From positions 1 to 50,248 of the forward strand of contig JAFXOI010000025.1 in NCBI GenBank assembly GCA_017528825.1: a stretch of 50,248 nucleotides of DNA, written 5' to 3'. The position numbers were made by a program, and so were the translations under genes. This document shows positions 29,831-40,450 of this stretch, piece after piece (the first letter of the stretch is position 1; the number at the start of each line of letters is the position of its first letter). The DNA is from Elusimicrobiaceae bacterium (lineage in GTDB: Bacteria; Elusimicrobiota; Elusimicrobia; Elusimicrobiales; Elusimicrobiaceae). The notes beneath the pieces were generated by a model that saw only the letters and a list, made by a program, of their open reading frames with translations, was not told the origin of the DNA and made no database searches.

Positions 29831-30511
29831 CTATGGAAGTATATATTCATAGGCGCAACCAGTTCCCTTGTAAGAGCCATTAAAAATTTTTTGGCAATAA
29901 TCACCTTTATTTTTAGTAAATTTGTAATTTGTGTTGATACAACTAAAATATTCGGAACAAGAAATATTTCCGTTAGCCTCAGACATATTTGGTTTATAAA
30001 ATGAAACGATTCGAAAGGTGCCCCCTTTATAAGGACCTGTTAAACGTACCATATTAAAAGCTATTGTTTCATGATTTTGATACAATTGAAGTGCCCAGTC
30101 TTTATTCGTTTTTTGATCTACAACAACACTAGCAATGATTTCACGTGTGTCTTGTTGTAAAGGAATATCTATATCCAATAAATCAAAACGATTTGCATAT
30201 TCTCCATTGGCTAAGTAATATCGTTCATTCGCAAGCCATACCTGTCTCAGTAATTGTATGGCTTCTGTAGCTTTTGCCTTTTCTACGGCCTTTTCATATT
30301 GCGGCAGGGCAATAGCAGATAAAATACCGATAATCAGTACGACGACCAACAATTCAATGAGTGTAAAAGCTTTTTTTGTCGTCATCCCGGACATGGATCC
30401 GGGATCCAGTCTGTTTATGAAGGTATTTTCCTTATTAACGGCCTGGATTGTGGGTCCACGCCCGCAATGACGGCTTTTTTGATTGTTTCTATTTTCTTTT
30501 TTCATCATCAT
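29831..30511 (-). CDS. Type IV pilin-like protein with repeat-extended leader
   Basis: 226 aa as read from 30511. The pilin signal is TTKKA^FTLIELL with mature Phe at residue 49, so the leader is 48 residues, against 4-8 in its relatives. The extra leader is the in-frame translation of a palindromic repeat (30381-30471). An alternative start is ATG 30385 (MTTKKA), which has only a poor ribosome site; the upstream start MMMKK also has just a weak GAG. The mature part is of the [15 protein letters not shown] subclass, with CSEYFSC and two further Cys near the end. A structured RNA ends about 40 bp upstream. An A7 tract in the KK codons just before the cleavage site is a possible slippage point. 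Confidence 0.8.
30381..30471. repeat. Palindromic dispersed repeat, copy 2, inside the pilin leader
   Basis: A 91-bp element with GTCAT and ATGAC at the ends, an inner CCCGGA/TCCGGG hairpin, an ATCCAG (30404)/CTGGAT pair, and a TGTGGG/CCCGCA pair near the right end. It is flanked by near-identical GCTTTTTTTG (30369-30378) and GCTTTTTTG (30473-30481), which could be a target duplication. It remains open in the pilin frame. Confidence 0.7.
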
Positions 30512-30549
30512 TTTCTCGTATTTTTATACTCGGGCTCAAACAAGGCCAT

Positions 30550-30575
30550 AAAAAACGGCTGCCTTATTTGAGCCG
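30550..30575 (-). terminator. Terminator of pilin leader RNA 1
   Basis: CGGCT pairs with AGCCG around a 10-nt loop, followed by T6 on the minus strand. The 3' arm CAGCCGT can instead pair with ACGGCTG of the RNA core (7 bp), an antiterminator-like alternative. Confidence 0.75.
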
Positions 30576-30812
30576 ATCTGAACAACCCAAATAAAACAGC
30601 CGTGGTCTGCCGTTCTTGCGAACGGCAAACACTTGGCACAAAACAAACGGCTCATGACTTCCGTTCATTTTGTGCCTATAACGACTGCTTTTGGATTCAG
30701 ATCGTGTTTTCAGTTTTCTGAAAACAAGTCCGCATTCTACATGCGGTTCCAAAAACAGATTAAATTGTAATTTGCGCCCTTGTGGGGCGGTTTCATCCTC
30801 CCTAAATAGGAT
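30550..30812 (-). ncRNA. Pilin leader RNA, copy 1 (unrecognised structured RNA)
   Basis: About 260 nt, 5' end near 30812. Stems in order on the RNA: 30785-30789/30775-30779; CCGCAT/ATGCGG (30746-30730); an U-rich hairpin TTTTCAG/CTGAAAA; a long-range closing helix (30703-30696 with 30582-30575) enclosing CAGTCGT/ACGGCTG (30687-30681 with 30603-30597), GGCACAAAA/TTTTGTGCC (30676-30668 with 30643-30635) and an 11-bp hairpin with a GCAA GNRA loop (30630-30605). A terminator follows (30575-30550). The copy at 40159 has the same fold with compensatory changes. Confidence 0.8.
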
Positions 30813-30818
30813 AATTTT

Positions 30819-30846
30819 ATTATACTAATTTGTTTTTATTCGTCAA
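30819..30846 (-). promoter_or_regulatory. Promoter of pilin leader RNA 1
   Basis: Minus strand: -35 TTGACG (30846-30841), 16-nt spacer, -10 TATAAT (30824-30819), a near-consensus promoter placed to start the structured RNA. Confidence 0.75.
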
Positions 30847-31930: not shown

Positions 31931-32560
31931 ATGATGAAAAAAGTAATAATGTTAGCAGCTGTACTGGCTTTGTGTGCGCCGGTATTTGCGGCTGAAGAGC
32001 AGGGAAAAGGAGCACCGCAGAAGGATTTCCACCCGTCTATGCATGCTCAAAAGGGCCCGCATGGTATGAAGGGTGGCTTGCAAAAAGGCATGATGTTTGG
32101 AAACAAAGAAAACTTGGAAAAAATGAAAGAAGCTCAAGCCAAACATAAAGCTGATTCGGAGCAATTGGAAAAGTTGGTAAAAGAATATAAAAAGGCAAAA
32201 GACGGCAGCAAAAAACAAACCGCTGCCCGTGAAGAAATCGCCAAAAAATTAGGCGAAATGCGTGAGGAACAAATCCAAAATCGCCGTGAAAAAATAGCTG
32301 GGTTTGAAAAACGCATTGACGAAATGAAGAGTCGTTTGGCTGAAGAAGAAAAACCGGAAGCTAAAGAAGCTTGGCTCAATGATATGACCGAACAAGTGAT
32401 TAAAAACGACGGTAAATTTAATCCGGCTTTTCGGGTAGGACCCAAAGGACAGGGCAGAGAAGGTTTCGGCGGACCGAGAGAAGGTGGCCCGCAAGGCCCG
32501 GGGTTTGACGGTGAAGTACATCCTTTACCGATGCCGCCGGCTCCTGCAGAAGAAAAATAA
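31931..32560 (+). CDS. Secreted Met/Lys-rich coiled-coil protein (CpxP/Spy-like in layout)
   Basis: About 209 aa, start at 31931 after an AGGAGGG site. Signal peptide ending PVFA-AE. A Gly/Met/His-rich stretch (about 25-65), a long charged coiled coil (about 65-160, Lys/Glu/Ala-rich) and a Gly/Pro-rich tail. No known family was recognised. As third gene of the sigma/anti-sigma operon it resembles small periplasmic sensor or chaperone proteins such as CpxP, Spy or CnrX, which feed back on envelope-stress sigma systems; this is inference from context and shape. Confidence 0.7.
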   Translation: MMKKVIMLAAVLALCAPVFAAEEQGKGAPQKDFHPSMHAQKGPHGMKGGLQKGMMFGNKENLEKMKEAQAKHKADSEQLEKLVKEYKKAKDGSKKQTAAREEIAKKLGEMREEQIQNRREKIAGFEKRIDEMKSRLAEEEKPEAKEAWLNDMTEQVIKNDGKFNPAFRVGPKGQGREGFGGPREGGPQGPGFDGEVHPLPMPPAPAEEK

Positions 32561-32582
32561 TAGCAGTAGTTTCTAAAGCATA

Positions 32583-32613
32583 AAAAACCCGCCCGGTATG
32601 GGCGGGTTTTTTT
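32583..32613. terminator. Bidirectional terminator
   Basis: AAACCCGCCC pairs with GGGCGGGTTT around GGTAT, with A6 before and T7 after. Between convergent transcripts. Confidence 0.9.
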
Positions 32614-32626
32614 AAGTATGAAATAC

Positions 32627-32950
32627 TTAGTTGCTCAACGCTTCTTTCCAAGCTTGTTTCTCGTCGTTTAATTGAGTCTTAACGGTATTTACTTTTTCTT
32701 GGACAGCTTGCTTAGCTAAGTCGGCAGCTGAAACGGACGAAGAGTCTGTATTAGTCGCCGAAGCAGCCGCTTTGGCGTTTTGATAAGCTTGTTTGGCTTC
32801 GATTAATTTTTGACGAGTTTCAGCCGATTTTTGTAATGCTTCTTCTAAAGTTAACGGAGTGTTAGCGGAAGAAGTAGCGGTATCTGCAGTGCTGGCACAA
32901 CCGGCAAAAGCCATGGCGGCCAACAAGGTAAAGAATACAGTTTTTTTCAT
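32627..32950 (-). CDS. Small Ala-rich lipoprotein
   Basis: 107 aa. Signal peptide with lipobox FAGC (Cys 18). The mature part is short and helical, rich in Ala, Lys, Glu and Gln with heptad-like spacing (a likely coiled coil), somewhat like Lpp-type or other structural lipoproteins, though without a clear Lpp C-terminal Lys. Ser/Thr/Asn-rich linkers precede and split it. Not recognised further. Convergent with the ECF operon and divergent from rmuC. Confidence 0.8.
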   Translation of the reverse strand: MKKTVFFTLLAAMAFAGCASTADTATSSANTPLTLEEALQKSAETRQKLIEAKQAYQNAKAAASATNTDSSSVSAADLAKQAVQEKVNTVKTQLNDEKQAWKEALSN

Positions 32951-39626: not shown

Positions 39627-40127
39627 TTATAGGTCATTATCTACATATTCCCAACCTAGCGCTTCATATTGCTTACAAATCTTACGGCCTAAATCGTTGG
39701 TCTCTGTAATACAAGCATTATACCAACCATCTACTGCTGAATCATCATTGTAGATTTTCTCTTGAGTGCTACGTAGGGCATACAGATCTCCTTGAGCTCC
39801 TGTTCTATAAATTTCAATATATCCACCAGAACTAGTAATACCTGCACCATACTGAAAATATTTTGTAAAGCAACTATTAGCATCCCACTCGCAGGGTAAT
39901 TCCACATTTGCAAACTCTTCATATCCTATTCTATCACTTGGCAATCCGTTTTCCATAATATACACTTGCATTTGTCGTTTCATGGTTGCAATATTAGTCA
40001 TGGCTTCGGCGGCGCGGGATTTTTCCACTGCAATCGTATATTGCGGCAAGGCAATGGCCGACAAAATGCCTATAATCAATACGACCACTAATAATTCAAT
40101 CAGGGTAAAACCTCTTTTATGTTTCAT
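39627..40127 (-). CDS. Type IV pilin-like protein
   Basis: 166 aa from ATG 40127, after an AAGGAG site; upstream in-frame sequence is the structured RNA. Leader MKHKRG^FTLIELL with Gly at -1 and Glu at +5; IALPQYTIAVEKSRAAEAM places it with the 9802 and 30511 subclass. The tail has three or four spaced Cys (CEWDANSC, C..C), and is of normal pilin length. The same unrecognised RNA precedes it as at 30511. Its N-terminus is near identical to other pilins here while the tail is not. Confidence 0.87.
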   Translation of the reverse strand: MKHKRGFTLIELLVVVLIIGILSAIALPQYTIAVEKSRAAEAMTNIATMKRQMQVYIMENGLPSDRIGYEEFANVELPCEWDANSCFTKYFQYGAGITSSGGYIEIYRTGAQGDLYALRSTQEKIYNDDSAVDGWYNACITETNDLGRKICKQYEALGWEYVDNDL

Positions 40128-40158
40128 ACAAGCTCCTTTTTGTTTTTGGAACAGACAT

Positions 40159-40184
40159 AAAAAACGGCCGCTACGCTTGAGCCT
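40159..40184 (-). terminator. Terminator of pilin leader RNA 2
   Basis: GGCT pairs with GGCC (one wobble) across a 9-10-nt loop and is followed by T6. The 3' arm CGGCCGT can also pair with the core strand ACGGCTG. Confidence 0.65.
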
Positions 40185-40401
40185 ATCTAGGTAACCCAAT
40201 ACATAACAGCCGTGGTCTGCCACTCTTGCGAGTGGCAAACACTCGGCACTAAACAGCCGGGTAATTAGTCCGTCCATTTAGTGCCTAAAACGACTGTTCT
40301 TGGACCTAGATAGTGCCTTGTCTGTACAAAGCTCTCCGTGTTCTGCACACGGTTCCAAAAACAGAATAAATTGTAAGCAGGGGATTGGCCTGCGGTACTA
40401 C
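40159..40401 (-). ncRNA. Pilin leader RNA, copy 2 (unrecognised structured RNA)
   Basis: About 243 nt, 5' end near 40401. Same stem order as copy 1: GCAGG/CCTGC (40393-40377); CCGTGT/ACACGG (40352-40336); a CTTTGT/ACAAGG hairpin; closing helix 40313-40304 with 40192-40183; CAGTCGT/ACGGCTG (40296-40290 with 40213-40207); GGCACTAAA/TTTAGTGCC (40285-40277 with 40253-40245); the 11-bp GNRA-capped hairpin (40240-40215); terminator. Unpaired blocks TTTTTGGAACCG and AGGCAC are identical in both copies. Confidence 0.8.
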
Positions 40402-40407
40402 CTTGAT

Positions 40408-40435
40408 AGTATAGCTTATTTTTGCTTTTATGCAA
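40408..40435 (-). promoter_or_regulatory. Promoter of pilin leader RNA 2
   Basis: Minus strand: -35 TTGCAT (40435-40430), 16-nt spacer, -10 TATACT (40413-40408). The same spacer length as copy 1. The -35 lies 15 bp from the -10 of the divergent decarboxylase gene, so the two promoters overlap. Confidence 0.65.
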
Positions 40436-40450
40436 ACAGAAATTTTTTTA

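Follow-up and report, generated by a model that had tools for sequence, protein, structure and literature searches.

A repeated, riboswitch-like leader RNA with rival terminator and antiterminator helices ahead of prepilin and other surface genes in Elusimicrobiaceae

The present analysis concerns a window, i.e., the whole stretch of 50,248 nucleotides that was analyzed (contig JAFXOI010000025.1 of the Elusimicrobiaceae bacterium assembly GCA_017528825.1), whose minus strand carries two copies of the same leader element, each followed by a prepilin gene. The initial annotation had placed three short strands, designated here A, B and C, in both copies, and re-reading of the sequence recovered all of them on the minus strand where they had been placed. 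The two copies and their genes comprise the following features.

30819..30846, minus strand: promoter of copy 1, TTGACG - 16 nt - TATAAT (11 of 12 consensus matches)
30549..30760, minus strand: leader RNA copy 1, whole element (covariance model R1, 192.7 bits, E 8e-55)
30748..30758, minus strand: X1 CUGUUUUUGGA of copy 1, 5' strand of P1, near-invariant (covaries with X'1 in variants)
30730..30746, minus strand: hairpin P2 of copy 1, CCGCAU..AUGCGG (alignment)
30705..30726, minus strand: hairpin P3 of copy 1, variable (alignment)
30695..30704, minus strand: 5' strand of P4 in copy 1, CGAUCUGAAU, partner of the terminator loop (complementarity, covariation)
30687..30694, minus strand: X'1 CCAAAAGC of copy 1, 3' strand of P1 and part of the antiterminator 5' strand (compensation in variants)
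30681..30687, minus strand: A strand of copy 1, CAGUCGU, antiterminator partner of B
30635..30676, minus strand: hairpin P6 of copy 1, tip AAGUCAUGAG
30652..30657, minus strand: self-complementary hexamer UCAUGA in the P6 tip of copy 1
30605..30630, minus strand: hairpin P7 of copy 1 (alignment)
30597..30603, minus strand: B strand of copy 1, ACGGCUG, start of the terminator 5' arm or partner of A
30574..30583, minus strand: P4' of copy 1, GUUCAGAUCG, terminator loop and partner of P4
30556..30602, minus strand: terminator hairpin T of copy 1, 20 bp, loop of 7
30555-30561, minus strand: C strand of copy 1, CAGCCGT, then T6
30550..30555, minus strand: terminator U-run of copy 1
29831..30382, minus strand: prepilin gene behind copy 1, frame of the mature part, ORF from 30511 (PF07963)
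40408..40436, minus strand: promoter of copy 2, TTTGCA - 17 nt - TATACT (9 of 12)
40158..40366, minus strand: leader RNA copy 2, whole element (R1, 198.3 bits, E 2e-56)
40354..40364, minus strand: X1 of copy 2
40304..40313, minus strand: 5' strand of P4 in copy 2, CUAUCUAGGU
40290..40296, minus strand: A strand of copy 2, CAGUCGU
40245..40285, minus strand: hairpin P6 of copy 2, hexamer UAAUUA at 40262-40267
40207..40213, minus strand: B strand of copy 2, ACGGCTG
40183..40192, minus strand: P4' of copy 2, ACCUAGAUAG
40165..40212, minus strand: terminator hairpin of copy 2, 19 bp
40164-40170, minus strand: C strand of copy 2, CGGCCGT
40159..40164, minus strand: U-run of copy 2
40141..40152, minus strand: X'2 GUUCCAAAAACA of copy 2, between terminator and ribosome-binding site, second possible partner of X1
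39627..40127, minus strand: prepilin gene behind copy 2 (PF07963 at 40047-40127)

Among 200 dinucleotide shuffles, none folds as well as copy 1 (z -11.1), and the predicted fold of copy 2 is likewise better than those of its dinucleotide shuffles (z -6.5). As had been claimed, B and C form seven perfect pairs in copy 1 and include one U-G wobble in copy 2. A can pair with B (CAGTCGT/ACGGCTG), with one U-G pair in both copies. The seven pairs of B with C are correct and understate the terminator: B belongs to its 5' arm, and the pairing extends over 20 and 19 bp in copies 1 and 2, respectively.

The leader RNA is about 215 nt long and has a constant order of parts. A promoter (TATAAT or TATACT -10 box, often TG-extended) is followed by an optional covarying hairpin, ACAAUUU, X1 CUGUUUUUGGA and P2; then come the variable P3, P4 (10 nt, different in nearly every copy), X'1 (CCAAARRC), A (CAGYCG), P6 and P7; the 3' part consists of B ACGGCUGUU, a variable stretch, UUGGG, P4', CUCAA, C (CRGCCG) and U5-7. 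X'2 UUCCAAAAACAG is found in about half of the copies, where it lies 3' of the U-run, ahead of the ribosome-binding site and the gene. P1 (X1:X'1) and P4:P4' cross, so that the core is predicted to be an H-type pseudoknot with 0 nt between P4 and X'1 and with P2 and P3 enclosed, next to a predicted three-way junction closed by A:B and bearing hairpins P6 and P7. Few unpaired positions are more than 95% conserved; the strongly conserved unpaired bases (the A before P6, the A and GUU after P6, and AAAC-n-A) are few and lie around the three-way junction.

Several minor features accompany this anatomy. X'2, just 5' of the ribosome-binding site, repeats X'1, and its pairing with X1 reaches -11 kcal/mol or better in 20 of 38 copies (0.9% in shuffles); this pairing may fix the RNA in its read-through state or act on translation. 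At loci L001, L005, L012, L017, L034 and L036, a second type of post-terminator ribosome site, GGGCCCGA or GAGCCCGAG-like, replaces X'2. In many copies of the genome, the stretch from the -10 box to ACAAUUU includes an extra hairpin of copy-specific sequence, of which relatives carry a conserved AUAAGCC..GGCUUAU version, and AGGAG or GGAGG is found 43-52 nt 5' of X1 in 12 of 38 copies. Candidates that were discarded are GGCUC beside the loop as terminator 5' arm, since GGCUC varies and the true 5' arm begins at B, and TACAAT as -10 box, since TATAAT/TATACT boxes lie further upstream and the intervening hairpin varies with compensation (as judged by eye).

Of the 38 copies, 32 have a TATAnT -10 box in the 100 nt upstream of X1, versus 9.9 in shuffles. 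The initial annotation had pointed out that the pilin could be transcribed from a separate promoter located 3' of the terminator; when searched for, TATAnT at most 60 nt past the U-run was found in only one copy out of 38, below the 4.2 found in shuffles. Since the -10 boxes lie upstream of X1 and hardly ever after the U-run, the pilin genes most likely depend on read-through. Furthermore, the start codon is usually located 30-45 nt past the U-run; therefore, the element sits in the 5' leader of the downstream gene.

The own genome of the window (1.53 Mb in 41 contigs) contains 40 copies according to blastn and about 45 according to the covariance model, two of them being cut by contig ends. 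It also encodes 114 prepilins (PF07963). Among the 40 blastn copies, 35 directly precede a prepilin gene, and the covariance model adds at least three such copies (C39:6136, C3:28736 and C19:14517), i.e., at least 38 in total. About two thirds of the 114 prepilin-type genes are devoid of such a leader. The exceptions in this genome are followed by genes encoding a lipoprotein-like protein, a HAD-like protein (both named from sequence only) and a DUF4422/GT8 protein. In other species, 63 of 118 copies are located before prepilin genes and 52 before something else, three being unassigned to either; the named targets other than pilins include GT8 glycosyltransferases, polysaccharide pyruvyl transferase, rhamnan synthesis proteins, outer-membrane beta-barrels, a TRL-like protein, a sulfatase-fold membrane protein and one PLD/SNF2 protein. 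The term "pilin leader" used at the outset is thus apt for most copies and slightly too narrow, as other surface genes also carry the element; the predicted regulon consists mainly of cell-surface genes.

The covariance model detected the element in 85 of the 294 sampled genomes of the phylum and in 8 of 90 genera, covering two genera of the family of the window (Elusimicrobiaceae) and one Endomicrobia-like family, which is probably Endomicrobiaceae. All the genomes concerned are metagenome assemblies as far as they are named. The number of copies per genome ranges from 1 to about 70, one genome of the second genus having 71 listed matches, of which a few are fragments. Among the matches listed, all exact-pattern records with a named organism come from metagenome-assembled genomes of Elusimicrobiota from rumen, bird, horse or termite gut. 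No convincing match was found in three genomes of the same genus nor in a single-contig genome of a sister genus.

The arrangement of the strands is kept in all 38 complete copies of the own genome and in 91 parsed copies from other species, and is therefore not due to chance; it should be emphasized that loci L153-L232 were found by a pattern fixing parts of B and C, so that conservation is biased in that set, and that the other loci from other species were found by the covariance model only. The terminator, a hairpin of 15-20 bp followed by a U-run, is present in 38 of 38 complete own copies, with a mean of -24.4 kcal/mol. Its inner arms score -9.8 with their own partner compared to -5.8 (sd 0.35) with the partners of other copies (0 of 5000 permutations). 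Compensatory cells of the terminator exceed those of all 500 shuffles in two gapless multi-species alignments, shuffle counts overstating independence because paralogous copies share ancestry, even if P4 sequences look unrelated between most copies.

As for the antiterminator, the 5' arm and the loop of the terminator can pair with upstream sequence in 38 of 38 complete own copies. The P4:P4' helix (9-12 bp) differs in sequence in nearly every copy and keeps its complementarity: the own P4' is strictly the best partner of P4 in 34 of 36 copies of the genome, and the P4:P4' score is at least 18 in 88 of 91 copies from other species, compared to a cross-copy mean of 11. In sets of equal length, for which length, motif and redundancy were the sole selection criteria, canonical pairs make up 84-91% of P4 cells versus 44-51% after permutation. 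The covariation score of P4:P4' in alignment A6 is 0.511 versus 0.169 when shuffled and at most 0.13 when slid, the percentages of the equal-length sets being the fairer number since alignments A5 and A6 omit sequences with another register or a broken P4 (e.g., L182 and L195). Compensation in P1 was seen in five X1 variants, one of them being an own copy that has gained one base on both strands. For A:B, no two-sided covariation was seen, B being nearly invariant, and the pairing is kept by one-sided changes only; the invariance of B, which has two partners, is expected if both pairings matter.

Folding predictions place the antiterminator and the terminator in succession. In nascent RNAs ending before the 3' arm, P4:P4', i.e., the antiterminator, is formed in 38 of 38 own copies. 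The complete leader folds as the terminator in 37 of 38, with a mean difference (terminator minus antiterminator) of -8.3 kcal/mol (sd 3.4), these energies ignoring the P1/P4 pseudoknot. The proposal of the initial annotation that core and terminator are mutually exclusive, in the manner of an expression platform, is therefore corroborated by the shared strand B, by compensatory changes in both the terminator and the antiterminator, and by the exchange of folds when the 3' arm appears. Covariation across copies and species argues that both rival helices are kept by selection.

The element is very probably a cis-acting transcription attenuator, i.e., a riboswitch-like leader RNA, for which we infer a co-transcriptional timing, a default-off state and the existence of a regulating signal. 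Transcription would start just upstream of the element. As long as the 3' arm of the terminator is still inside RNA polymerase, the nascent core would fold, forming P1 and the P4:P4' pseudoknot, with A:B closing the junction that bears P6 and P7, and would thereby occupy both B (the terminator 5' arm) and P4' (the terminator loop). Once CUCAA...GCCG emerges, the 3' arm would take over B and its continuation, and a terminator of 15-20 bp would form ahead of the U-run and stop transcription before the pilin gene. The complete RNA would favor termination, leaving the gene off by default, and a signal that holds the A:B core or delays the exchange would allow polymerase to pass. As the same switch is copied, one signal could control dozens of pilin and other surface genes together. 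Our first guess is that this signal, a small molecule or a protein, acts at the three-way junction, because the few conserved unpaired bases lie mostly there and the junction exists only in the ON state.

The tip of hairpin P6 exhibits an unexpected self-complementarity. A 6-nt palindrome is present in the P6 tip of 74 of 116 distinct copies compared to 6.6 (maximum 12) in shuffles, which keep base composition only; the same few tips recur across genera, so that these counts are not independent events. Different hexamers (UAAUUA, UUAUAA, UCAUGA, UUCGAA and UUGCAA) occupy the same place, mostly in 9-nt loops of 2+6+1 nt, and that five or more different hexamers are all palindromes is unexpected by chance. 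The tips of P2, P3 and P7 are not enriched in palindromes, and the P6 palindrome recurs at another site of its own RNA in 2 of 75 cases, below chance. GACG is the tip of shorter P6 variants; in tips of 5-7 nt, palindromes are limited to 4 nt, and UCGCU has none. No association was seen by eye between the type of P6 tip and the type of pilin. A small set of tips (ACUAAUUAC, CUGAUCC, AAGUCAUGAG, GUAGCUC, ACUUAUAAU and GACG) recurs across genera on stems that drift, as if modules were exchanged.

These tips resemble known dimerization loops. HIV-1 dimerizes via a 6-nt palindrome in an apical loop, and GACG forms kissing loops in murine leukemia virus (PMC7357161, PMC5874298). The likeness of P6 to HIV-1 DIS and to the MoMuLV GACG kissing loops lies in the palindromic tip of 6 nt and in the GACG tetraloop of short variants. 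However, P6 belongs to a bacterial leader, its palindromes are A+U-rich, and its flanking purines are not conserved: the purines flanking the HIV-1 palindrome are needed there (PMC7357161), whereas the 5' flanks at P6 are AC, CC, CU or AU and the 3' flank is mostly C. Dimerization of the leader via P6 is thus proposed as a hypothesis. A wider proposal, which we regard as doubtful, is that of a new RNA class that would recognize itself at two levels, with the copy-specific helix of P4 and the terminator loop as a barcode holding each switch in cis and with P6 for dimerization, the read-through of dozens of pilin genes being set by leader concentration or by partner leaders and not by a metabolite.

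Several triggers could be envisioned for this attenuator. A small molecule, for which the A:B/P6/P7 junction and the P1/P4 pseudoknot would be the aptamer of an ON riboswitch responding to a metabolite or a second messenger, is a tentative yet real possibility: the architecture is that of a riboswitch and includes an exclusive expression platform, the conserved unpaired bases, few in number, surround a junction present in the ON state alone, and pilus genes are elsewhere under the control of cyclic-dinucleotide riboswitches. However, a handful of strongly conserved unpaired bases is little for a ligand pocket, Rfam gave no match to a known riboswitch family, and the targets are surface genes and not a metabolic pathway. 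X1 CUGUUUUUGGAA and B hardly vary at all and are more strictly conserved than pairing alone would require, X1 remaining fixed while X'1 drifts between A and G, and the very many copies per genome fit a global factor; both points are consistent with a leader-binding protein (antiterminator or terminator factor) that would set the read-through of all copies together, although the conservation of X1 could also be explained by its two partners X'1 and X'2, and we hold this trigger to be rather unlikely. The abundance of several palindromic hexamers in one place of P6 and not in P2, P3 or P7, their similarity to the type of loop found in the HIV-1 dimerization site, and GACG being a known two-pair kissing loop (PMC7357161, PMC5874298) point to RNA as the trigger, either by pairing of leaders via their P6 tips or by action of terminated leaders in trans, with read-through depending on leader concentration. 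This is unlikely, since P6 is present in both the terminator and antiterminator forms, which makes its coupling to the switch not obvious, many palindromes contain only A and U and lack flanking purines of the HIV-1 type, and the small loops have shorter palindromes or, for UCGCU, none.

Other readings are less probable. The promoter and the strong terminator bound a 215-nt RNA, and a few copies have no pilin behind them, as expected for an independent small RNA gene ended by a constitutive terminator, the downstream gene being expressed otherwise; yet this is improbable given the deficit of promoter-like sites between terminator and start codon, the short distance that mostly separates the two, and the covarying pairing of P4 with the loop, which a plain terminator does not need. 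A terminator with a fixed leak would similarly share the terminator arm but need no covarying P4. Ribosome-mediated attenuation via a leader peptide has a precedent for a pilus, Pil1 of Streptococcus gallolyticus (PMC3894217), but no conserved leader ORF was found here: an ORF of at least six codons preceded by a ribosome site exists in 9 of 38 copies, at unrelated positions and with unrelated sequences, which makes this mechanism very improbable. Equally remote is a DNA-level element (recombination site or mobile hairpin) that would not be a regulatory RNA. Many copies are dispersed, and in a good part of them X1 and X'2 constitute terminal inverted repeats; however, their orientation and spacing before gene starts are fixed, a promoter lies upstream, the U-run is always on the RNA strand, and the compensatory changes in RNA helices include G-U pairs.

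The leader can be compared with several known systems. Like transcription-terminating riboswitches, the leader is located in 5' position and its compact fold excludes a terminator with U-run; unlike them, it has few conserved unpaired bases, no Rfam match and up to about 70 copies per genome. Riboswitches for c-di-GMP or cGAMP (GEMM) also control pilus and surface genes through a leader RNA, but Rfam detects no match in sequence or structure between them and the present leader, which is about twice as long as GEMM. T-box leaders are also long, with a rival terminator and antiterminator; in contrast with them, the leader has no Rfam match and precedes surface-protein genes, not amino-acid genes. 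The pil1 operon of S. gallolyticus shares with it a premature terminator ahead of pilus genes, which is opened there by a translated ORF bearing repeats (PMC3894217), whereas the leader has no conserved ORF.

More generally, no relevant Rfam match was obtained for the window, for the element alone (E up to 10) nor for 13 homologous loci, and no description of the element was found in the open-access literature. The element appears to represent a class of bacterial gene-control RNA that had not been described, with unusually many copies, in a phylum that has hardly any genetics. Should it sense something, the pili and surface structures displayed by a gut or termite symbiont could be set by a single signal. 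Because its alternative helices covary, it lends itself directly to tests in vitro, and the palindromic tips of P6 raise the possibility of regulation by RNA dimerization, of which few natural cases are known.

Other observations concern the neighborhood of the leaders. Weak Rfam matches to Leu_leader and rnk_pseudo at positions 32550-32640 of the window correspond to one bidirectional GC-rich terminator (CCCGCCC..GGGCGGG) and not to a leader. A palindromic repeat, GTCATTGCGGGCGTGGACCCACAATCCAG...CTGGATCCCGGATCCATGTCCGGGATGAC (window 30386-30511), lies in frame within the 5' end of the pilin ORF that follows copy 1. Relatives carry similar in-frame extensions (HAELDSAS..., LNQVQDD...) ahead of the prepilin cleavage motif, within the segment that would be cut off by prepilin peptidase.
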